DNA from: Terriglobia bacterium
GTDB lineage: Bacteria; Acidobacteriota; Terriglobia; Bryobacterales; Bryobacteraceae
Direction: 5' to 3'
Length of the DNA: 64,000 nucleotides
Assembly: GCA_020073615.1 (NCBI GenBank)
Contig: JAIQEX010000014.1
Span: forward strand, 1-64,000
Part shown: in pieces, positions 10,219 to 21,692 of the stretch
Numbering within the stretch: the stretch's first letter is position 1
Layout of the letters: every line of letters begins with the position of its first letter
Translations under genes and position numbers: made by a program
The notes under the pieces: generated by a model
The model's input: the letters and a program-made list of their open reading frames with translations, nothing else
Databases searched by the model: none
What the model was told of the DNA's origin: nothing

Positions 10219-11148
10219 TCAGGCGCCGGTCTTCTGCGCCATCTTCAATTGGCGCCAGGCGTCCACACCGCCTTGGAGTGGACGAACGCGGGTGATGCCT
10301 TCGGCTCGTAACAGCAGCGCCGCCCGGGCGCTGGACGCTTCGTTGGGTCAACTGCAGAAGAGAACGATTTCGCGGTCGCGGGGAATCTCGCGATGGCGCG
10401 AGCGAAGCTCCTCCACGGCGATGCGGATGACGCCGGGAATCGCGCATGGCTCAATGTCCATGGCGGTTCGCAAGTCTATGATCGTCACTTCCTCGCCGGC
10501 ATTCAGTCTGGTCCGCAGTTCCTCCGCGGTGATACGGGCGATGGCAAGCTGCTTGAGGAATCGCCGGCGTTGGACGAACTTCCAGAGGATCCAAGCGGCG
10601 AGCAGTGCCAGGACCAGCACCACCAGCCCGGAACCCATTTGCGCGGCGCGGGCCTCTACGATCTCTATCTGTCCGCCGAAAGCGTAACCGAGACCGGTAT
10701 AGGAAGCCACCCAGAGAAAAGCGCCGGCGGCGTCGAACATCAGAAACCGGCGGATGCCGGCGCCGGAGCAAGCGGCCAGGGGCGCAGCGACCGCGTTCAA
10801 TCCGGGAATGAACTTGGAAACCAGCAGCGAGCGCAGGCCATATTTCACGAACGCGTTCTCAGTCCGGCGCACGCACGAATCGGGCTCCAATGCAACGCGG
10901 CAGAGAAAGCGCAACACCTTCGGGCCGCGGCGGCGCCCCACTTGAAACCAGACACTATCGGCGATCAGGCTCGCCGCAACGCCGCAGGCGACCACGAGCA
11001 GCGGGTTCAGCCTGCCGGAGCGGGCCAGCGCCCCGCACGCCAGCAGTACCGGGATAGAGGGAAGCGGCAGCGCACCCTGCTCGGCGAGAATCCAGAAAAA
11101 CACCAGGAGGTAACCGTGCCGGACGACAAAGGCGATCAGGTGGCCCAT
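10219..11148 (-). CDS. DedA membrane protein-rhodanese fusion with in-frame UGA (candidate selenoprotein)
   Basis: Residues 1-200 form a DedA/SNARE-associated integral membrane domain (GALPLPSIPVLLACGALARSG, SKFIPGLNAVAAPLAACSG). Residues about 215-309 are a rhodanese domain (EEVTIIDLRTAMDIEPCAIPGV, then RPLQGGVDAWR). The frame is broken only by TGA at 10348-10350, codon 267, in the active-site loop Phe-Cys265-Ser-UGA-Pro-Asn-Glu. From my knowledge of DedA-rhodanese fusions this loop is normally CSCPNE, so the UGA replaces Cys. The frame downstream is intact to the next TGA at 10219 and keeps the family C-terminus, and a 7-bp hairpin follows the UGA. Either selenocysteine is inserted or a single mutation truncated the gene at 10348. 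ATG 11148 was chosen because the membrane domain begins there. Confidence 0.72.
10315..10333 (-). promoter_or_regulatory. Candidate bacterial SECIS hairpin
   Basis: In the mRNA, 14 bases after the UGA of the DedA-rhodanese gene, CAGCGCC pairs perfectly with GGCGCUG around a five-base CGGGC loop. The apical loop begins 21 bases after UGA and has G at its second position. Both fit my recollection of bacterial SECIS geometry. In such GC-rich DNA a 7-bp hairpin can arise by chance, so this is suggestive only. Confidence 0.4.
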
Positions 11149-11278: not shown

Positions 11279-12391
11279 ATGAAATCGCTGGCGGTGGTAG
11301 CCTGTATGCTGACGGGCTTGACCATGAGCCTGTGGGCGGCGGACACGCGGCGCGCGGCGGACTCCGCGCCTTGGAGCGGCCAGTCGGCGGCCGCCTATCT
11401 CGAGGGGCGGCTCAAATGGTGGATGACCTGGCCGCCGGCGGCACGCGATCATGAAACGTTCTGCGTCTCGTGTCACACCGTGGTGCCCTACTCCATGGCG
11501 CGGCCTGCCTTACGGGCGGCGCTCGCGGAACCATCCGCGTCGGAGCTCGACCACAGACTCCTGGACAACGTCGCCAAGCGCGTCCGGATGTGGAATGAGG
11601 AAGAGCCGTTCTACCCCGGCGCCAAGGCGGGCGAATCGCGCGGCACGGAGTCGGTGCTCAACGCTCTGATCCTGGCGGACTACGATGCTCTCACCGGCAA
11701 ATTGAGCGCGGATGCGCGCCTGGCGTTCGACCGCATGTGGTCGCAGCAGTTGGCGGAGGGCGAGGGCAAAGGGGCGTGGCCGTGGTTCCAGTTCCACTAC
11801 GCGCCATGGGAGGGCGACTCGCAGTTCTACGGCGCCACGCTGGCCGCCATCGCCGTGGGCACCGCGCCTGGCAACTATCGGTCCGCCCCGGAAATTCAGG
11901 ACAGCCTGGCCTTGCTGCGCGAGTATCTGGCGCGGCAGCGCGCGGCGCAAACCCCGATAGACCGCGTGATGCTGCTGTGGGCATCTACGAAGCTGCCCGG
12001 GCTGCTCACGCGCAACCAGCAGAAGACCATCGTCGAGGAAGCGCTGAGCCGGCAGCGGGCGGACGGCGGCTTCAGCCTGACGTCGCTCGTGGGAAAGTGG
12101 CAGCGGAAGGACGGCACACCGCTCGAGACGCGCAGCGACGGCTACGCCACCGGGGTGGTGGCTTTCGTGTTGCAGCAGGCGGGTGTGGCGCGCCGCCAGC
12201 CGACGTTGCGGCGGAGCCTGGAATGGCTGGAGCACAATCAGGACAGGACGGACGGCCGCTGGCTGGCCTGGTCGCTGAACAAGCAGCGGGACCCGGTCTC
12301 CGACATTGGCCGTTTCATGAGCGACGCGGCCACGGCGTTCGCGGTGATGGCGCTCGATCCGCGGTCAGAAGCGTCCCACGGGCACTTCTAA
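11279..12391 (+). CDS. Exported alpha/alpha-toroid (prenyltransferase/squalene-cyclase-like) protein with a CxxCH motif
   Basis: Protein of 370 residues with a signal peptide (LAVVACMLTGLTMSLWAAD). Near residue 62 is FCVSCHTVVPYSMARPALR, a c-type heme CxxCH signature. The remainder is helical with repeat units like those of prenyltransferase/squalene oxidase toroids, for example RQRADGGFSL and LEWLEHNQDRTDGRWLAWSLN. No terpene-cyclase DxDD motif was seen, so cyclase activity is not supported. A periplasmic heme-bearing or redox role is inferred from CxxCH plus export. Its 3' end overlaps the converging phosphopantetheinyl transferase gene by 27 bases. Expression context is unknown; the upstream DedA gene is divergent. 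Confidence 0.75.
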   Translation: MKSLAVVACMLTGLTMSLWAADTRRAADSAPWSGQSAAAYLEGRLKWWMTWPPAARDHETFCVSCHTVVPYSMARPALRAALAEPSASELDHRLLDNVAKRVRMWNEEEPFYPGAKAGESRGTESVLNALILADYDALTGKLSADARLAFDRMWSQQLAEGEGKGAWPWFQFHYAPWEGDSQFYGATLAAIAVGTAPGNYRSAPEIQDSLALLREYLARQRAAQTPIDRVMLLWASTKLPGLLTRNQQKTIVEEALSRQRADGGFSLTSLVGKWQRKDGTPLETRSDGYATGVVAFVLQQAGVARRQPTLRRSLEWLEHNQDRTDGRWLAWSLNKQRDPVSDIGRFMSDAATAFAVMALDPRSEASHGHF

Positions 12392-13075
12392 GCAGACGGG
12401 CGGGGCGGGCGGCGGCGCGGCGACCACGGTGAACAGGAAGCCCTCGGTCTTCCGCCACCAGCCGTGAAAGGCTCCGCTGGCGTGATGCACCAGCAAGGGA
12501 TGCCAGGTGTCGGAGTCGCCGGCGAGCCGCGGCGCGTAGTTGGGGCTGACCGAAAGCGACCGGGTGTCGAGGCGGAGGCCGGTGCGCAGCGCCTTGAGCC
12601 CACTCTCCTTGGCGCTCCACAGCAGGGTCGCCAGCGCCGGCCGGTCCGCAGCCGGGGCCCGTGCGACCAGGGCCTGTTCTTCGGGCGTGAAGTAGTCGGC
12701 CAGAAACCCTTCGCTGCGCGGTTCGACGAGCTCCAGGTCGCAGCCCAGCGCCGCATCGGACCCGGCGATGGCGCACACCGCCCGCCCGGCGCGATGGCTG
12801 ATGGAAATCCGCACGGCCGCCGGCCGGCAGGAGAAAAAAGCCTCGGGGGCGCCGGAGGGCGCGGCGCGGATTTCCAGGAGGGCCAGCGCTTCGCGATGGC
12901 CTGGCCCATGGCGGTAAGCGGCCAGGGCGTGCTTGGCGGTCCAGCGGCCCAGCCGCCAGTCGGCGCGGCGCTTGGGAAACCGCATGGCATTCAGGCAGTC
13001 GGTTTCGCTGGCGCTGAGCCAGTCGTTCTCCGCCGGCAGATCCGCGTCAGTCTGCTCCAGCCAATAGACGTCCAT
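12365..13075 (-). CDS. 4'-phosphopantetheinyl transferase (Sfp/AcpT superfamily)
   Basis: Transfers 4'-phosphopantetheine from CoA to carrier-protein domains. The 236-residue length fits Sfp-type enzymes. The Mg-binding motif GCDLE (Asp113, Glu115) and the WSAKESGLKAL motif (about 153-163, Lys156/Glu157) are intact, as is an upstream ISISHRAG segment. ATG 13075 starts 2 bases after the megasynthase stop, and an alternative GTG at 13081 overlaps that stop as GTGA. Either way the two genes are translationally coupled, so the megasynthase carrier domains are the expected substrate. All four of those lack the usual serine, so the small ACP at 46.7 kb or other carriers may also be clients. Confidence 0.9.
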   Translation of the reverse strand: MDVYWLEQTDADLPAENDWLSASETDCLNAMRFPKRRADWRLGRWTAKHALAAYRHGPGHREALALLEIRAAPSGAPEAFFSCRPAAVRISISHRAGRAVCAIAGSDAALGCDLELVEPRSEGFLADYFTPEEQALVARAPAADRPALATLLWSAKESGLKALRTGLRLDTRSLSVSPNYAPRLAGDSDTWHPLLVHHASGAFHGWWRKTEGFLFTVVAAPPPAPPVCLEVPVGRF

Positions 13076-13077
13076 GG

Positions 13078-16000
13078 TCACACCATAACGGCGTGCAATG
13101 CGCGGAACGGCTCGGCATCGACCGCATTGGGAAGCGCCACCGTGCCGTATCCGGCGATCCGCGCGTAGACGTTGCCGGCGGCATCCACCACCTCCGCATC
13201 GAAGGTTTCGCGATCCGGGTTGGGGGTGACCACCGCGTACAGCGGGCCCTCGACGAGCGCGGGCGAGCGCCCCGGCGCGACCCGGCGAATCTGCCGCGGC
13301 AGAGCCATGCGGCCCTGCGTGCTGATCTCCCAGAGCCCCGCGGTTTGCAGGCACAGCTCGAGGAGCCGCGGCGCCATGAGCAGCGGGCGCTCGGGCGGGT
13401 GATGGTTGTCGGGCAGGGGATGCGCCATCTGGCCGGCGACCCTCTCCCTATCCAGCCATGCCCGCTCCACCACCTGGTAGGCGGGTCCGTGGAAGTACAC
13501 GCGATAGATATCGGCGGCCGCGACCACCGGCCCTTCGGGCACGCCCGGTGCGCGCGCGATGGCGGCTTCGCGAGGCTGCCTGGCGAGCCGCACGCGGGCC
13601 GTGAAATGCGTGGTTACTTGCGGCTCGGCCTGATTGGGCAGTTGGCGGCTGCCGGTGAGGCGGCATTCCGCCACCAGGCGATCGCCCTGTGGATGCAGTG
13701 CCACCTGGATGGTGAGGGTGCGCGGTTCGCCGCGATAGAATTTGAACGGCGCGAGGAAGTTCACGTCTTCGACAACATCGATGTGCCAGTGCGGCGCCAG
13801 AGATTGGGCCGCTTCGGCAAAGGCTTCGACGCCCATGACGCCGGGCAGCACCGGCGTGCCGTCGATCTGGTGATCGTGGAGAAACGCCTGCTGGGCCGGG
13901 TCGAGCGTGGTCTCAATGGTGAAGGTGCCCGCCAGCGACGCACCGGCGAGCTTGCCGATCATCGGTCCGGTGGCGGCGGCCAGCGTCTCGGCCGCGGCCG
14001 GATCGAGTCCGCCAGTGGCATCCCATTCGTTCATCAGGATGCCCAGGCGCTGGCCGACGACGATTTCGCCGCGCGTGGCGCCCGCCGTCAGTTCGCGGCG
14101 GATCAAAGGTATGCCGGTCTCGGGCGGCAGCATGTCGATACCCGCCAGCTCCATCATTTTGGGGATGGAGCCGCGCGTGGCCATGCCGATGCCGCCCCAC
14201 GCCGTCCAGTCGATGGCGATGGCGCGCGTGGCCGGCCGGGTGGTGCGGAAGCTGGAGGCGAACTTGCACAGCAGGTCGTTGGCGGCGCTGTAGTCGGTCT
14301 GCCCGCCGTTGCCGAAGCGGCCGGCGATGGAGCTGAACGCCACCGTCGCCCCAAGGGGCATGTCGCCGATGGCGTGCAGCAGGTTGAACCAGCCGTCGCT
14401 CTTCACGTCGAAGACAAGGTCGAATTCGCGCGGATCTTTATCCGGCAGGAAGTGGCTGCGTTCGATGCCCGCGGCGTGCAGCAGGACGTCGATGCGCCCG
14501 CTGCGCTCGCGCACCTGCTGGATGATGTGGGCGACCCCGGCGGCATCCCGGAGGTCGACGCTGAAGTAGTGCGCCGTGCCGCCGGCCTCACGCACGGCAT
14601 CGATGGCGCTCTGCGCGGCTTGCGCGCGCTCGAGGGCCGCCAGTTCTTTTTCCACCAGCACCGGGGTGGCGCGCTCGCCGCGCGCCTGTATGCGCGCGAA
14701 CAGATCGCGTTTGAGCCCGTCGCGGTCGGTGGTGAAGCGTTTCAGGTCGGGATTATCGGCCGCGGGCTCGGGCACGAGGTCGAGCAGGTAGAAGGTGCCG
14801 CCCGAGGCGGCGGCCAGGTCGGTGGCGATGGCCGAAACAATGCTCCCCGCCGCGCCCGTGATCAGGAAAACGGTATCGCGGTTGAGCTCGAGGCCGGGGC
14901 CGCCGTCGGCCGCGGGCTGCTCTTCGAGGCCGATGGCGAAGCGCTCCCCGCCCTGGCAGCCGATCTCCACGGCGCCGGGGTCGCGCAGGGTTTCCGCGAC
15001 CAGGCTTTCGGCCACTTCCGCGGCCGCGCGCTCCGCTGCGAAATCGACGACTTTGGCCAGCGCGTCCGGGCGCTCGCGTTTGTAGGTCTTGGTGAAGCCC
15101 GCGACCGCGCCGCCCATGGGCGCGAACGCTCCAGCTTCGTCGTAGCCGTGAAGGCCGCCCAGGCGCGTCGCCGAAACCAGGAAGGTGCCGGGGTGGGACA
15201 CCTGCTCGTAGAGCACGCGCATGGCGGTGTACAGCGATTTGACGCGCACGCGCACGGCCTCATGCCAGGCCGCAGCGTCCAGATCGCCGAGGTGGCCCTC
15301 GTGATCCAGGGCGGGCAGCCAGTAGATGCCCTGCACGGGACCGGAGGCCAGCCACTCGTGGAGTTGATGGGTGAGCGCGGCGGCATCGGGAGCGCCGTCA
15401 ATCATGAGGGTTTCCGCACCGGCGGCCTGTAGCTGTTGCGCCAGGGCTTCGGCCACGCCGCCGCGGTCGGGCATGATGACCACGCGGCTTCCGGGGCCGA
15501 GGGTCACGCCCGTGGGTTTGCAGATATTGAGCGCCGGGCGCAGGTTGGGCACCGGGACGCGGCGTGGAATGCGGTTGGCGTCGTCGAGACTGGCGGCGCG
15601 CGGTCGAGCGGCCGGCGCGGTCTCGGGCCCGGCCGGGGAGCCCCCCTGCGCCTTCTGCCGGTCGTGCGCGAACTGAATCACGTGGGCCAGCGTGGGGAAA
15701 TCGCGCAGCTTGAGGTTTTCGTCGCGCGCGATGCCGAAGGCCGCGCGCACGGAAGCAAACATTTCGGCCTGCTTGACGGTGTCGACGCCGAGATCGGCTT
15801 CGAGATCCAGATCGAGATCGAGCATGTCGATGGGGTAGCCGGTTTTTTCGGCGACGATGGCGAGCACTTTGTCCTTGATGGGGTCGCCCGCGGGCGCCGC
15901 AGCCAGGGGCGGGGCGACCGGAGCGGCCGGGACCGGAGCAACAGCCGCCGCCAGCACGGTTTGCCGGTCGTGCGCGAAGCGGATCACGTGGGCCAGCGTG

Positions 16001-19000
16001 GGGAATTCGCGCAGCTTGAGGTTTTCATCGCGCGTGATGCCGAAGGCCGCCCGGACGGCGGCGAACATTTCCGCCTGCTTGACGGTATCGACGCCGAGAT
16101 CGGCTTCGAGATCCAGGTCGAGGTCCAGCATGTCGATGGGGTAGCCGGTCTTATCGGCGACGATGGCGAGCACCTTGTCTTTGATCGGGTCGCCCGCGGG
16201 CGCCGCCGCCGCCGGAGGCGGGGCTGCCGGAACGGTGGCGGCGGGGACGGGCGCCGCCAGCACCGTTTGCCGGTCGTGCGCGAAGCGAATCACGTGGGCC
16301 AGCGTGGGGAACTCGCGCAGCTTGAGGTTCTCGTCGCGCGTGATGCCAAAGGCCGCGCGCACGGCGGCGAACATCTCGGCCTGCTTGACGGTGTCGACGC
16401 CGAGATCGGCTTCGAGGTCCAGGTCGAGATCCAGCATGTCGATGGGGTAGCCGGTTTTTTCGGCGACAATGGCGAGTACTTTGTCCTTGATGGGGTCGCC
16501 CGCGGGCGCGGCCACGGGGGGCGGGGCTACGGGAGCAGCCTGGACCGCCGGGGCCGGAACCGGCGCCACCGGCGCGGCGTGCCCCATCTTGTCGTGCACC
16601 AGGCGAATGACGTGCGCGAGCGTGGGGAAGTCGCGCAGCTTGCGGTTTTCGTCGAGGGGAAGGTGGTAGGCCTCGCGAATGGCGGCCATCATCTCCGCCT
16701 GCTTGACGGTATCGACGCCGAGATCGGCTTCCAGATCGAGGTCGAGATCGAGCATGTCGATGGGGTAGCCGGTTTTTTCGGCGACGATGGCGAGCACCTT
16801 GTCTTTGACGGGGTCGCCCGCGGGCTTCGGCGCCACGGGCGGCGTCACGGGTGCGGCCTTGGCCACTACCGGCGTGGCGGCGGGAGCGGGCTTCGCCGCG
16901 GCTGGAGCCGGCGCTGCCGCCTGCACCTTCCGCTCCGCCACGGCGGGCTTCGCCGGCAACGCCTGATCGCGCACGCGCAGGGTACGGTGCACCACTTCGA
17001 GCTCGGCGGCGGGCTGTCCCGACATGCGGGTCAACCACGCTTTCCACACGGCGGGATCGGCAATGCGTTGGGCGTAGCCCGCGGCATTGGGGCCGGGACG
17101 AACGCCGTCTTGCGCCGCCACGCGGCGCAACAGGGTCATGCTGATCTGGGAACCGAACCCTGCGCCCAGCCGTAGCGCGTACTCGACGGGATAGACGCCG
17201 CCCTTCGACAGGTTCAGTTGCCCCAGCTCGGGGTCGACTTCCTTGAAGTTGGCTACCGGCGGCACCCAGCCGGTTTCGAGCGACTTGACGGCGACGACAT
17301 CCTCGATGCCGGTCGCCATGGCGTGCCCGGTGAAGCCCTTGGTATTGGCGATCACGATGGAATCGGCCGATTCGCCGAACACCTGGCGCAGCGCGTAGAT
17401 TTCCGCCGACGCGCTGCCGCCGCGCGCGGGCGTGTAGGTCTCGTGGGAAACGAAAACGGTTTGCGGCGCGATCTGATGGCGGGAGATGCCGCGCGCTTCG
17501 GCCTGGACCATTACGTCCTCCATGACCTGGCCGATGTGGCGGACATCGAGGCGCGAGCCGTGGAAGGCGCTGTTGGCGATCACTGCGCCCAGCACCTCGC
17601 AGATGGGCCGGATGCCGCGTTCGCCTGCGGCTTCGGCGCTCTCCACCACGAGGGCGGCGGCGCCCATGCCCATGATCAGGCCGTGGCGCCGGCGGTCGAA
17701 GGGAATGGCGGCATCTTCCACCGCTTCGTCGGTGGCGGCCGCTCCGCTGGCCAGGAAGCCGGCCCCGATCCAGTCGATCAGGTGATCGGAGGTCACGTCG
17801 TCGGCCGAGATGATGATGGCGCGGCGGCAGCGGCCGGCGCGAATCCAATCCTCGGCCAGCCCTACGGCCAGGGTGGTGCTGGCGCAGGCGGAGTTGATTT
17901 GCGTATTCGGACCGCGCGCGCCGATCAGCTCGGCGAACTGCGAATGTCCCATTGAAAGCGTCCGGAACAGGAAGCGCCGGTCGAAGGTAAACGGCTCTTT
18001 TTCGATGGCGGAGCGCAACTCGGCGATGCGCCGGTCCAGGTCCTGCGCGTTGGCGGAATTCGCGTCCGCCGTGCGGGAGCGCAGGTCTTCGAGCACGGCC
18101 AACTGCTCGCGCCGCCCGTGCTCGGCGTAGTAGCGCGACATCATATCGGCCAGGGAGTCGAGGCCGGGGAAGGCGGAGGCGAAGATCACGGCGGTGTCGT
18201 CGCGCAGTTCGTCGGGCAAGCCCCAGCCGTCCGGCAGGCGGGTGCCCTTGGTGGTGGTCTTGTAGCGCATCACCAGCGGGATGCCGGCGTCGCGCAGGGC
18301 GTCGATGCCGGACCCGATGGCGAGCGCGGTGGCGCGGTCCAGGGCGGCCACGCGGTCGGCCGAAACGCCGAATTCCTTTTCCAGGTCGAAGGCGCCCCCG
18401 CGGGCCGCCAGCTTGATGACCTCCGACAGGTTGTGCAAAGTCTCGAAGGTGGGGTCGCCGTTGTCGCTCTTCACCAGGCGGGTGATGTTCTTGTCCAGCA
18501 TGGCGCGGCGGTAGCGCATGGGGATGGCGTCGATGAACTGGTCGCCGCGCAGGATGCGGCCGAGGTTGGCATCGTCGAAGACGTGTTCGGTGCCGGGCAG
18601 GCCCAGGGCGGCTCCGGTGATGGCCACGGGGAGGGTGGAACTCGGGGCTGCGGGGCCGTTGCGGCCTTCGTAAATCTCGCGGCCGCGCTCCAGAAAGTCG
18701 GCGAACAAGTGGCCGAGCGCGGAGTAGCGGTCACCCGAAACGGGCGGCGCGGCTACGGCGGTGACCACCTGCGGCTTGGCGGACACAGCCAGCGGTTTCA
18801 CCTCTACGGCCGGACGCACCGGTTCAGCGGCGATTCCACGGCCCAGGCCCGCGGCATAGAGCCCGCACAGCGCCTGGTTGAAGGCCACCGTGTCGCCGGC
18901 CTTGGGATGGTTGGTGAAAAACGAAACCACGTCGCCGCGGTCGCCCAGCACATCGTCCACAAAGCCCTGCAACGCCTTCTTGGGGCCAGTCTCCACGAAG

Positions 19001-21663
19001 ACGCGCGCGCCGGCCCGGTACAAGGTGTTCAGGCCCTTCACAAACTGTACGGGGGAAGCGACCTGGCGCGCCAGGATGTCCAGCATCTGCGGCTTCACGT
19101 CCGGCCCGGTGGGATAGAACTCGCCGCTTTCATTGGCCACGATGGGGATGTGCGGCGATTCCAGATGCAAACGCTCGAGCACGCGCCGCAGCGGCTCACT
19201 GGCGGGCGAAACAATCGACGTGTGGAAGGCATGGCTCACCGACAGCGGCACGGCGTTGTAGCCGGCATTCTGAAAAGCCGCGACCGCCCGTTCCACGGGT
19301 GCGCTGGCGCCGCCGATCACGGCCTGCGTTCCGCTGTTCAGATTGGCGATCACCACGTAGCCGTCGACGGTCTGGAGGATTCTTTCGATCTCGGCGAGCG
19401 GCGCAAACACGGCCGCCATCTTGCCGTCGTCGCCCATCGACAGGCGCGTCATCTCCCGGCCGCGCGCGCTGACCGCTTCCAGGGCGTCGGCAAACGGCAT
19501 GGCTCCGGAAACCACCAGCGCTCCGTATTCGCCCAGGCTGTGGCCCATGGTCATATCGGGCGCAATGCCGTAAGCGGCCAGCAGGCGCGTCAGCGCCAGG
19601 TCGGTGGCCAGCACGGCCGGTTGCGTGATGGCGGTCTGGCGCAGGTCCTCTTCCACCTGGGCCACGGCCGCGGCATCGGCGCTGTCTACGAAGATATAAT
19701 CGGTGAGCGGCTTGCCCAGGATCGGGGTCATCGCCCGATCAGCTTCGGCAAACGTGTCGGCGACGATCGGTTCGGCGGCGCGCAACGCTTGCAGCATGTT
19801 GACATACTGCGAGCCTTGCCCGGTATAAAGGAAGGCCACTTTACCGGCGGGACCGCTGCCGCGGAAGATGCCCTGCGCGCGCAGAGCCTTCCACACCGGC
19901 GCCTGGTTGGCGGCCAGCGCCTTGAGCGCCTTGGCCGCTTTGTCGGCCAGTTCGGCGGCGTCGCCATAATCGATGGCCAGCCGCTCGGGGGCGCGCAGAT
20001 CCGCTGCGGCGGGCACGGACGCGGCGGGCGCGCGGCCCGCTTCAGCGTCCTTGCGGACGGCCTGCAAACGCTCGGCCAGCTCGGCGCTCGAGGTCCCACC
20101 GATCACCAGCGCGCCGCGCAGTGGCGCTTTATAAGAGGATGAGGGCGCCGACGCCGCGGGGTGGGCGTGCAGTCCTCCGTTGCCGGCGGCGGGCGGGGTC
20201 TCGTGCATCCCCACCGTGTGCCTGCCGTTGCCGTTCAGCCGGTGCGGGATGTACTCCTCCAGCACGGCGTGGAAGTTGGTGCCGCCGAAGCCGAACGCGC
20301 TCAAACCGGCGCGCCGCACGCCATCGGCGGGCATGGTCCACGGTTTCAATTCGGTATTGATGTACAGCGGCGAATGGGCAAAATCGATATCCGGGCTGGG
20401 ATGCTCGCCATGCACGCTGGGCGGCAATACCTTGTCGCGCAGCGCGAGGGTGGCTTTCAGGAAACCGGCGGAGCCGGCGCCCGCCTTCAGGTGCCCGATA
20501 TTCGATTTCACGGAGCCCAGCGCCACCGAACCGGCCGGAAGGTGAAAGCCGCTCAGCGCTTCGGCCATGCTCTCGGCCTCCACCACGTCCCCCACGCGCG
20601 TGGAGGTGCCGTGCGCTTCAATCAACCCCACCGTCGCGAGGGACACTCCGGCGTTCTCCCAGGCGCGCTCGATGGCGAATTTCTGGCCGATGGGGTTGGG
20701 CGCGGTGATGCCCTTTCCCTTGCCGTCGCTCGAGGCGCCCATGCCCCGCAGCACGGCGTAGATCTTGTCGCCGTCGCGCTCGGCGTCGGCCAGGCGCTTC
20801 ATCAGGAAGATGGATGCGCCTTCGCCCATCACGAAGCCATCGGCCCCTTCCGCGAAAGGACGGCTGCCGGTGCCGGATAACGCGCCGATCTTGCAGAACT
20901 TGATGAAGGTGGAGATCCCCATGTTGCGGTCCACGCCGCCGGTCACCGCCACGTCGAAATCGTGTGCGATTAACCCCTGCGCCGCCGCATTCATGGCGGC
21001 CATGGCCGAGGCGCAGGCCGCGTCCACCACGAAGTTGGGGCCGTGGAAGTTGAATACGTTGGCCACCCGGCCGGCCAGAACGTTGGACAGCTCGCCGGGC
21101 ATGCTGTCTTCGGTGATCTGCGGCAGGTACGCTCCCAGGCGTTGGTGCCATTCGCGCGTGATGTCGCGCTGCATCGCCTCAGGCAGGGCGGCGAACGTGG
21201 CGCTTTCTTCCAGCTCATGGGCGTATTCGGGGAAGTACGCGCGCAATGCCGTGAGGTAGTGCCGCTCGCCGCCCATGGCATTGCCCAGGATCACGGCGGT
21301 GCGGTCGAGGTCGAGCGGGCGATTCGGGTAGCCGTAATCGTCGAGCGCCTCGCGCGTGCACGCGATGGCCCATTTCTGCGAGCCGTCCATGGCATCCGCC
21401 ACGCGCGGCGGAATGGCCAGGCGCCACTTCATGGGCTCCCAAACGTACTCGCGCACCCAGCCGCCGATCTTGGAGTAGGTCTTATCCGGCGCATCGTGGT
21501 CGGAATCGTAGTACATCGCCGGATCCCAACGGTCGGGCGGCACCTCCGTGATACTGTAGCGGCCGCCCTTTACGTTTTCCCAGAAAGCCGCTACGTTGGT
21601 CGCATCGGGTAGGACGGCCCCTGCCCCCACAATGGCAATCGCCTTATAGCCGGTGTCTTCCAT
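13078..21663 (-). CDS. PUFA-synthase-like type I megasynthase: KS-AT-KS-ACPx4-KR-DH
   Basis: A 2,861-residue iterative-type assembly line. KS1 has Cys217 in DAACAS plus EAHGTST and SNIGHLKAG. The acyltransferase has GQGSQ and Ser709 in GHSLGEYG. A divergent second KS has Cys1260 in SACAST, with SHETYTP and KGFTGHAMA carrying the two His. Four ACP repeats follow, each EADLGVDTVKQAE, with Thr1652, Thr1758, Thr1860 and Thr1962 where PfaA-type ACPs have the phosphopantetheine Ser. KR: TGAAGS near 2260, Tyr2458 in DYSAAN. Hot-dog DH: His2598 in HDHQIDGTPVLPG. No ER or thioesterase is seen. Start ATG 21663 follows GGGGGAG at 8 bases; an ATG at 21687 is less likely. It sits 29 bases after the ACAD gene and is coupled to the PPTase. 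Product unknown; a lipid or polyketide is inferred. Confidence 0.88.
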   Translation of the reverse strand: MEDTGYKAIAIVGAGAVLPDATNVAAFWENVKGGRYSITEVPPDRWDPAMYYDSDHDAPDKTYSKIGGWVREYVWEPMKWRLAIPPRVADAMDGSQKWAIACTREALDDYGYPNRPLDLDRTAVILGNAMGGERHYLTALRAYFPEYAHELEESATFAALPEAMQRDITREWHQRLGAYLPQITEDSMPGELSNVLAGRVANVFNFHGPNFVVDAACASAMAAMNAAAQGLIAHDFDVAVTGGVDRNMGISTFIKFCKIGALSGTGSRPFAEGADGFVMGEGASIFLMKRLADAERDGDKIYAVLRGMGASSDGKGKGITAPNPIGQKFAIERAWENAGVSLATVGLIEAHGTSTRVGDVVEAESMAEALSGFHLPAGSVALGSVKSNIGHLKAGAGSAGFLKATLALRDKVLPPSVHGEHPSPDIDFAHSPLYINTELKPWTMPADGVRRAGLSAFGFGGTNFHAVLEEYIPHRLNGNGRHTVGMHETPPAAGNGGLHAHPAASAPSSSYKAPLRGALVIGGTSSAELAERLQAVRKDAEAGRAPAASVPAAADLRAPERLAIDYGDAAELADKAAKALKALAANQAPVWKALRAQGIFRGSGPAGKVAFLYTGQGSQYVNMLQALRAAEPIVADTFAEADRAMTPILGKPLTDYIFVDSADAAAVAQVEEDLRQTAITQPAVLATDLALTRLLAAYGIAPDMTMGHSLGEYGALVVSGAMPFADALEAVSARGREMTRLSMGDDGKMAAVFAPLAEIERILQTVDGYVVIANLNSGTQAVIGGASAPVERAVAAFQNAGYNAVPLSVSHAFHTSIVSPASEPLRRVLERLHLESPHIPIVANESGEFYPTGPDVKPQMLDILARQVASPVQFVKGLNTLYRAGARVFVETGPKKALQGFVDDVLGDRGDVVSFFTNHPKAGDTVAFNQALCGLYAAGLGRGIAAEPVRPAVEVKPLAVSAKPQVVTAVAAPPVSGDRYSALGHLFADFLERGREIYEGRNGPAAPSSTLPVAITGAALGLPGTEHVFDDANLGRILRGDQFIDAIPMRYRRAMLDKNITRLVKSDNGDPTFETLHNLSEVIKLAARGGAFDLEKEFGVSADRVAALDRATALAIGSGIDALRDAGIPLVMRYKTTTKGTRLPDGWGLPDELRDDTAVIFASAFPGLDSLADMMSRYYAEHGRREQLAVLEDLRSRTADANSANAQDLDRRIAELRSAIEKEPFTFDRRFLFRTLSMGHSQFAELIGARGPNTQINSACASTTLAVGLAEDWIRAGRCRRAIIISADDVTSDHLIDWIGAGFLASGAAATDEAVEDAAIPFDRRRHGLIMGMGAAALVVESAEAAGERGIRPICEVLGAVIANSAFHGSRLDVRHIGQVMEDVMVQAEARGISRHQIAPQTVFVSHETYTPARGGSASAEIYALRQVFGESADSIVIANTKGFTGHAMATGIEDVVAVKSLETGWVPPVANFKEVDPELGQLNLSKGGVYPVEYALRLGAGFGSQISMTLLRRVAAQDGVRPGPNAAGYAQRIADPAVWKAWLTRMSGQPAAELEVVHRTLRVRDQALPAKPAVAERKVQAAAPAPAAAKPAPAATPVVAKAAPVTPPVAPKPAGDPVKDKVLAIVAEKTGYPIDMLDLDLDLEADLGVDTVKQAEMMAAIREAYHLPLDENRKLRDFPTLAHVIRLVHDKMGHAAPVAPVPAPAVQAAPVAPPPVAAPAGDPIKDKVLAIVAEKTGYPIDMLDLDLDLEADLGVDTVKQAEMFAAVRAAFGITRDENLKLREFPTLAHVIRFAHDRQTVLAAPVPAATVPAAPPPAAAAPAGDPIKDKVLAIVADKTGYPIDMLDLDLDLEADLGVDTVKQAEMFAAVRAAFGITRDENLKLREFPTLAHVIRFAHDRQTVLAAAVAPVPAAPVAPPLAAAPAGDPIKDKVLAIVAEKTGYPIDMLDLDLDLEADLGVDTVKQAEMFASVRAAFGIARDENLKLRDFPTLAHVIQFAHDRQKAQGGSPAGPETAPAARPRAASLDDANRIPRRVPVPNLRPALNICKPTGVTLGPGSRVVIMPDRGGVAEALAQQLQAAGAETLMIDGAPDAAALTHQLHEWLASGPVQGIYWLPALDHEGHLGDLDAAAWHEAVRVRVKSLYTAMRVLYEQVSHPGTFLVSATRLGGLHGYDEAGAFAPMGGAVAGFTKTYKRERPDALAKVVDFAAERAAAEVAESLVAETLRDPGAVEIGCQGGERFAIGLEEQPAADGGPGLELNRDTVFLITGAAGSIVSAIATDLAAASGGTFYLLDLVPEPAADNPDLKRFTTDRDGLKRDLFARIQARGERATPVLVEKELAALERAQAAQSAIDAVREAGGTAHYFSVDLRDAAGVAHIIQQVRERSGRIDVLLHAAGIERSHFLPDKDPREFDLVFDVKSDGWFNLLHAIGDMPLGATVAFSSIAGRFGNGGQTDYSAANDLLCKFASSFRTTRPATRAIAIDWTAWGGIGMATRGSIPKMMELAGIDMLPPETGIPLIRRELTAGATRGEIVVGQRLGILMNEWDATGGLDPAAAETLAAATGPMIGKLAGASLAGTFTIETTLDPAQQAFLHDHQIDGTPVLPGVMGVEAFAEAAQSLAPHWHIDVVEDVNFLAPFKFYRGEPRTLTIQVALHPQGDRLVAECRLTGSRQLPNQAEPQVTTHFTARVRLARQPREAAIARAPGVPEGPVVAAADIYRVYFHGPAYQVVERAWLDRERVAGQMAHPLPDNHHPPERPLLMAPRLLELCLQTAGLWEISTQGRMALPRQIRRVAPGRSPALVEGPLYAVVTPNPDRETFDAEVVDAAGNVYARIAGYGTVALPNAVDAEPFRALHAVMV
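15640..16850 (-). repeat. Four tandem carrier-domain repeats of about 305-318 bp
   Basis: Inside the megasynthase the segment encoding an ACP of about 75 residues plus an Ala/Pro-rich linker is repeated four times. The motif GVDTVKQAE recurs at intervals of 106, 102 and 102 residues. Copies 2-4 are almost identical in the ACP core, differing mainly in synonymous bases and linkers; copy 1 is more diverged after the motif. The pattern resembles the tandem ACPs of PfaA-type synthases and implies recent duplication or gene conversion of copies 2-4. Confidence 0.9.
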
Positions 21664-21692
21664 GATGACTTCTCCCCCAACTCCCATTCCCG

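Follow-up and report, generated by a model that had tools for sequence, protein, structure and literature searches.

The in-frame UGA at codon 267 of a DedA-rhodanese fusion gene, found in the stretch of 64,000 nucleotides of acidobacterial DNA analysed here (the window), is with a probability of about 0.96 read as selenocysteine, which would make the gene a conserved selenoprotein gene of this soil acidobacterium and of dozens of its relatives. The evidence comes from comparative sequence analysis and is of four kinds: the selenocysteine machinery of the genome, the conservation of UGA or Cys at this codon, a SECIS hairpin downstream of it and the selection acting on the codons that follow. 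All four support the original prediction, in which the UGA was taken to be decoded rather than to terminate translation.

The gene lies on the reverse strand (10219–11148) and comprises 309 codons with an internal UGA and a terminal stop TGA. Its start is the ATG at 11148, which is consistent with homologues aligning from residues 1–5. Translation confirmed that the TGA interrupts an otherwise intact frame in the rhodanese loop, as had been claimed: the sole internal TGA of frame 11148–10219 is at 10348–10350 (codon 267, context REIVLFCS-UGA-PNEASSARAAL), and the 42 codons 3′ of it complete the rhodanese domain. When the protein was scanned with the TGA read through, two Pfam domains exceeded their gathering cut-offs, namely a VTT/DedA membrane domain (PF09335, residues 29–155, 10684–11064, reverse strand; 43.3 bits versus a cut-off of 33.9) and a rhodanese domain (PF00581, residues 207–300, 10249–10530, reverse strand; 46.4 bits versus 22.2). 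With 43 aligned homologues as input, AlphaFold gave a model with a mean pLDDT of 86.9; the rhodanese part of this model matches solved rhodaneses (Foldseek), and residues 260–282 form a strand, a loop and a helix, with Cys265 and residue 267 in the loop. Elsewhere on the same strand, a frame of 2869 codons (13078–21687) with repeated acyl-carrier-like segments appears by eye to be of the polyketide or polyunsaturated fatty acid synthase type, and a frame beside it (12365–13354) resembles, also by eye, a phosphopantetheinyl transferase.

A homologue was found at E ≤ 1e-20 in 117 of 200 genomes of the window's family. In the alignment of this first set (116 rows), site 267 is occupied by a stop in 73 rows, by Cys in 34, by Ser in 6, by Gly in 1 and by a gap in 2, the two gap rows being unrelated rhodaneses and three of the stop rows being extra records that were afterwards left out, so that 70 UGA homologues remained. 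The sole in-frame stop is always UGA and always at codon 267 in 90 Acidobacteriota genes, that of the window included; a sense codon is present at this site in 50 loci of the family and phylum-wide sets, and it is Cys in all but seven of them. The UGA does stand, as predicted, at a cysteine of the family, and the loop CSCPNE, which had been given as that of the Cys form, is the one found in a homologue 63% identical to the window protein (L060). In a tree of 139 rows, for which the site-267 column was kept in (1 column of 303), parsimony requires 13 changes of the UGA label, at least eight of them forced by starred (well supported) branches, which indicates that Cys and UGA have been exchanged repeatedly. 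Some genomes contain the fusion both with UGA and with Cys (L101/L102 in G144 and L047/L065 in G187). The comparison supports the view that a pair of residues has been retained, Cys-x-(Sec/Cys), whose first Cys occupies the catalytic position of the rhodanese loop: Cys265 (10354–10356, reverse strand), the first member of the pair, is Cys in 70/70 UGA homologues of the first set, and in a HMMER alignment it coincides with the catalytic Cys of rhodaneses of solved structure. Ser replaces Cys/Sec267 in a few homologues (L124–L128, L105), and in two of these (L126, L127) Cys265 is replaced by Ser as well, so that the redox pair is lost from some copies.

A genome-wide reassignment of UGA to a sense codon (as in codes 4 or 25), which would leave the frame open through codon 267, is ruled out since the gene itself terminates with TGA (10219–10221), and it also disagrees with the residue opposite the UGA, which is Cys rather than Trp or Gly, and with the complete Sec machinery and the hairpin specific to UGA homologues that are described below. 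A nonsense mutation or an error in sequencing or assembly, by which the rhodanese C-terminus would have been lost or falsely interrupted, could be considered because TGA is one base away from TGC and TGT and because the genome is a draft of 252 contigs. However, the UGA is also present in 89 homologues from other genomes, which are about 31–87% identical to the window protein and whose frames contain no other stop. The genus contains one further genome, which carries the UGA in a homologue 87% identical, and the fusion gene of a named Bryobacteraceae MAG is 87% identical to the window gene; a TGA common to the congener and to 88 further homologues excludes a sequencing error in practice. Relaxed selection after the UGA, which had been named as a finding that would speak against decoding, was not seen. 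Pooled over 14 close pairs, omega falls from 0.25 in the 60 codons before the UGA to 0.10 in those after it, and it is 0.09 for the codons beyond the hairpin; between the window gene and its congener there are six synonymous differences and one non-synonymous difference in codons 268–302. The codons beyond the hairpin are under strong purifying selection, and this, together with the 89 other UGA homologues, rules out both the nonsense mutation and the error.

A SECIS element had been suggested to be sought in the bases after the UGA, and a hairpin is indeed found there within the coding sequence (10316–10332, reverse strand). It consists of AGCGCC (10332–10327), the loop CGGGC (10326–10322) and GGCGCU (10321–10316), with 6 bp in the stem; it starts 16 nt after UGA267, and its loop begins at nt 22. 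All 90 UGA genes fit the same offsets after the UGA (AGCGCC-N5-GGCGCU, loop from nt 22). The codons that form the stem are nearly invariant in the UGA homologues: Ala274 is GCC in 66/66 of them versus 9/29 sense-codon homologues (Fisher p 6e-14), Ala277 is GCG in 70/70 versus 19/41 (Fisher p 3e-12), both p values being calculated as if the sequences did not share ancestry, and within the UGA homologues Ala276 is GCG in 38/38 and Ser273 is AGC in 68/70. The UGA genes keep on average 5.71 of the 6 pairs versus 3.57 (sd 0.11, maximum 3.9 in 1000 trials) when codons are swapped for synonyms at the codon usage of the family, and sense-codon homologues keep 3.9. Synonymous change in the hairpin codons is suppressed in UGA genes, whereas Cys genes vary freely there, which indicates a bacterial SECIS element. 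It should be noted that the weight of this case lies in the synonymous-codon test and not in covariation: the RNA pair counts show little of it, with two cells in which both sides have changed; one homologue (L154) has a compensated pair (AGUGCC/GGCACU), and in a clade of five the lower stem diverges while the upper stem and loop are retained. Position 2 of the loop is G in 90/90 UGA genes, and U (68 genes), G (20, the window gene among them) and C (2) occur at position 3. The window loop CGGGC, with GG at positions 2–3 as in 20/90, differs from the commoner CGUGC and CGUGU. Like the SECIS of Escherichia coli fdhF, the hairpin is located in the coding sequence directly after the UGA and has a G-containing apical loop; unlike it, it has another stem sequence, and its loop is CGGGC. 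In one fusion clade the loop is GGUCU, as in fdhF.

A candidate selenoprotein calls for selA, selB, selC and selD in the genome. In the source genome (6.96 Mb, 98% complete) the genes selA (L001, 499.7 bits), selB (L002, 349.1 bits) and selD (L010, 365.1 bits) and a tRNA-Sec with the anticodon UCA (L014, 77.7 bits) were all found with scores above the cut-offs. The selD gene (G000:C160:10404–11327) has an in-frame UGA of its own in the N-terminal active-site loop (HVKAAG-UGA-ASKLSP); SelD as a selenoprotein is a known trait (PMC13188914). In a phylum-wide sample, selA was detected in 19/20 UGA-form genomes versus 2/20 sense-form genomes (p 6e-8), the test ignoring shared ancestry and all 18 sense-form genomes without selA belonging to one family; site 267 was read in nine of the sense-form genomes, and the other eleven were assigned from a stop-free frame. 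Among the genomes of a single family of the same class, selA is present in 3/3 UGA-form versus 1/19 sense-form genomes. Within the window's own family the link between UGA and selA is weak: selA occurs almost throughout that family (166/200 genomes), and it was not detected in 9 of the 73 UGA genomes of the family set. Most of these nine are incomplete drafts, and the presence of selB in eight of them points to missing contigs.

From these data the following mechanism can be proposed. When the ribosome reaches UGA267, the downstream hairpin would recruit SelB carrying Sec-tRNA-Sec, and insertion of selenocysteine followed by termination at the TGA that is also the last codon of the gene would yield the full-length selenoprotein of 309 residues. 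The C-terminal rhodanese of this DedA-type membrane protein would then carry Cys265-Ser-Sec267 in its active-site loop, and judged by the chemistry of CxU motifs and the rhodanese fold, Cys265 and Sec267 most likely form a reversible selenenylsulfide. Positive residues after the last membrane helix predict a cytoplasmic location of the rhodanese domain, and the pair may there reduce or transfer thiol or persulfide groups on the inner side of the membrane. A role as membrane-anchored Cys-x-Sec redox centre is in our opinion reasonably likely. The DedA domain contributes a family-specific cysteine pair, Cys83 (10900–10902, reverse strand; present in 43/43 aligned homologues) and Cys92 (10873–10875, reverse strand; 42/43), which neither E. 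coli YghB nor a DedA paralogue of the same genome (L024) has and which may be the redox partner of Sec267. The pair persists where Ser replaces Cys/Sec267, which suggests that coupling within the proposed relay is loose.

The UGA could also be mainly a regulated stop, the switch itself being the function: with scarce selenium a truncated DedA protein of 266 residues would be formed and with selenium the full fusion. Truncation would spare the membrane domain and half of the rhodanese domain, and decoding of UGA as selenocysteine is, according to PMC4513850, partial and dependent on the selenium supply. Against this stand the Cys forms, which give the full protein without a switch, and the recurrent exchange of UGA and Cys; both indicate that the residue and not the stop is conserved, and such a switch is therefore quite unlikely. 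Rhodaneses are possible selenium carriers, and the fusion could accordingly be a device for selenium acquisition and delivery, the DedA domain importing selenite and the rhodanese handing reduced selenium to SelD. Consistent with this, a DedA protein has been tied to selenite resistance (Ledgham 2005, as cited in PMC10127716). However, 18 genomes in which selA was not detected retain the sense-codon form, and delivery for selenocysteine synthesis would be useless there; nor is a selenium gene prominent in the three larger gene neighbourhoods inspected, which makes a delivery device improbable, too. A conserved operon context of the fusion gene was likewise not seen in these three neighbourhoods.

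Somewhat better than these two, although still doubtful, is the explanation by which an ordinary COG0586-type undecaprenyl-phosphate flippase carries the rhodanese as a redox-regulating tail. COG0586 includes DedA-rhodanese fusions, and in YghB, a DedA protein of the same membrane domain family, the residues Glu39, Asp51, Arg130 and Arg136 are described as important (PMC10127716). Glu23 of the window protein aligns with the essential Glu39. However, of the acidic pair and the basic pair of COG0586 undecaprenyl-phosphate flippases, only this Glu is found unchanged: in the alignment Asp51 corresponds to Ile32, Arg136 to Asn118 and Arg130 to Lys112. The replacement of two of the four residues described as essential, together with Lys in place of Arg130, makes a plain flippase less likely, and the window protein differs from YghB and other flippases of the DedA family also by Cys83/Cys92 and by the rhodanese tail.

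A membrane-anchored redox centre with a Cys-x-Sec pair has relatives on both sides of the fusion. Rhodaneses with a CxU motif are known as "Rhodanese-like form 3" (NF041203), one of five rhodanese forms in the selenoproteome table of 2026 (PMC13188914). In NF041203 (rhodanese_LYCAU) the selenocysteine follows the loop Cys by two residues, as it would in C265-S266-U267 of the window protein. Indeed, NF041203 is the best-scoring NCBIfam model for the window protein, although with 70.8 bits it stays below the curated cut-off of 115, and no match above this cut-off was obtained in 101 genomes of the family. Unlike that rhodanese, the one in the window has a DedA membrane domain as its fusion partner, and none of the five forms in the table is described with DedA. 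TsoB (NF045694), a rhodanese/DsbD fusion-like selenoprotein (PMC13188914), likewise joins a rhodanese to another part, but the partner is DsbD-like and the motif is UxxxxU with two selenocysteines. DedA-rhodanese fusions are known in COG0586, for example PA1209 of Pseudomonas aeruginosa, and the link between the two domains has been called unclear (PMC10127716; PMC12893004 for the fusions). They share with the window protein the order PF09335 then PF00581 (PA1209 was compared by description only), but selenocysteine is not mentioned for them in PMC10127716 and PMC12893004. CxU rhodanese selenoproteins and DedA-rhodanese fusions are thus each known; their combination was not found in the 2026 census or in the limited literature searched.

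The fusion adds to the selenoproteins a membrane-anchored architecture that is found widely across a major soil phylum and that the 2026 census table does not list. Since no curated selenoprotein model reaches its cut-off, standard annotation may truncate such genes or call them broken. Close relatives provide numerous UGA and Cys versions, and a few genomes contain both; together they constitute a good natural experiment on the choice of selenium over sulfur by bacteria. The conserved Cys-x-Sec site makes a redox role of the DedA-rhodanese link directly testable.

DedA is not the only partner. Frames of about 560–580 residues in three genomes of the family join a Na+/H+ exchanger (PF00999, scanned for L185) to a rhodanese with the loop VLCA-UGA-PNEATSARVA and the same hairpin (L183 in G079, L184 in G100 and L185 in G008). 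Read in the same way, this fusion is apparently another selenoprotein architecture absent from the 2026 table. The exchanger and DedA fusions suggest a modular CxU rhodanese that brings its own SECIS and has been joined to more than one membrane protein. Tentatively, the CxU rhodanese of Acidobacteriota could be a movable selenocysteine module on unrelated membrane proteins (DedA, Na+/H+ exchanger), whose Cys-Sec pair would sense the redox or reactive-sulfur state and gate transport. Related UGA rhodaneses occur in frames of 524–633 residues in five genomes elsewhere in the phylum (L190–L194, of which L190 was read), and one genome contains a short rhodanese frame (L186, G031:C17) with YCN-UGA-TKEATSARLA and the hairpin AGCGCC-AGGCU-GGCGCG.
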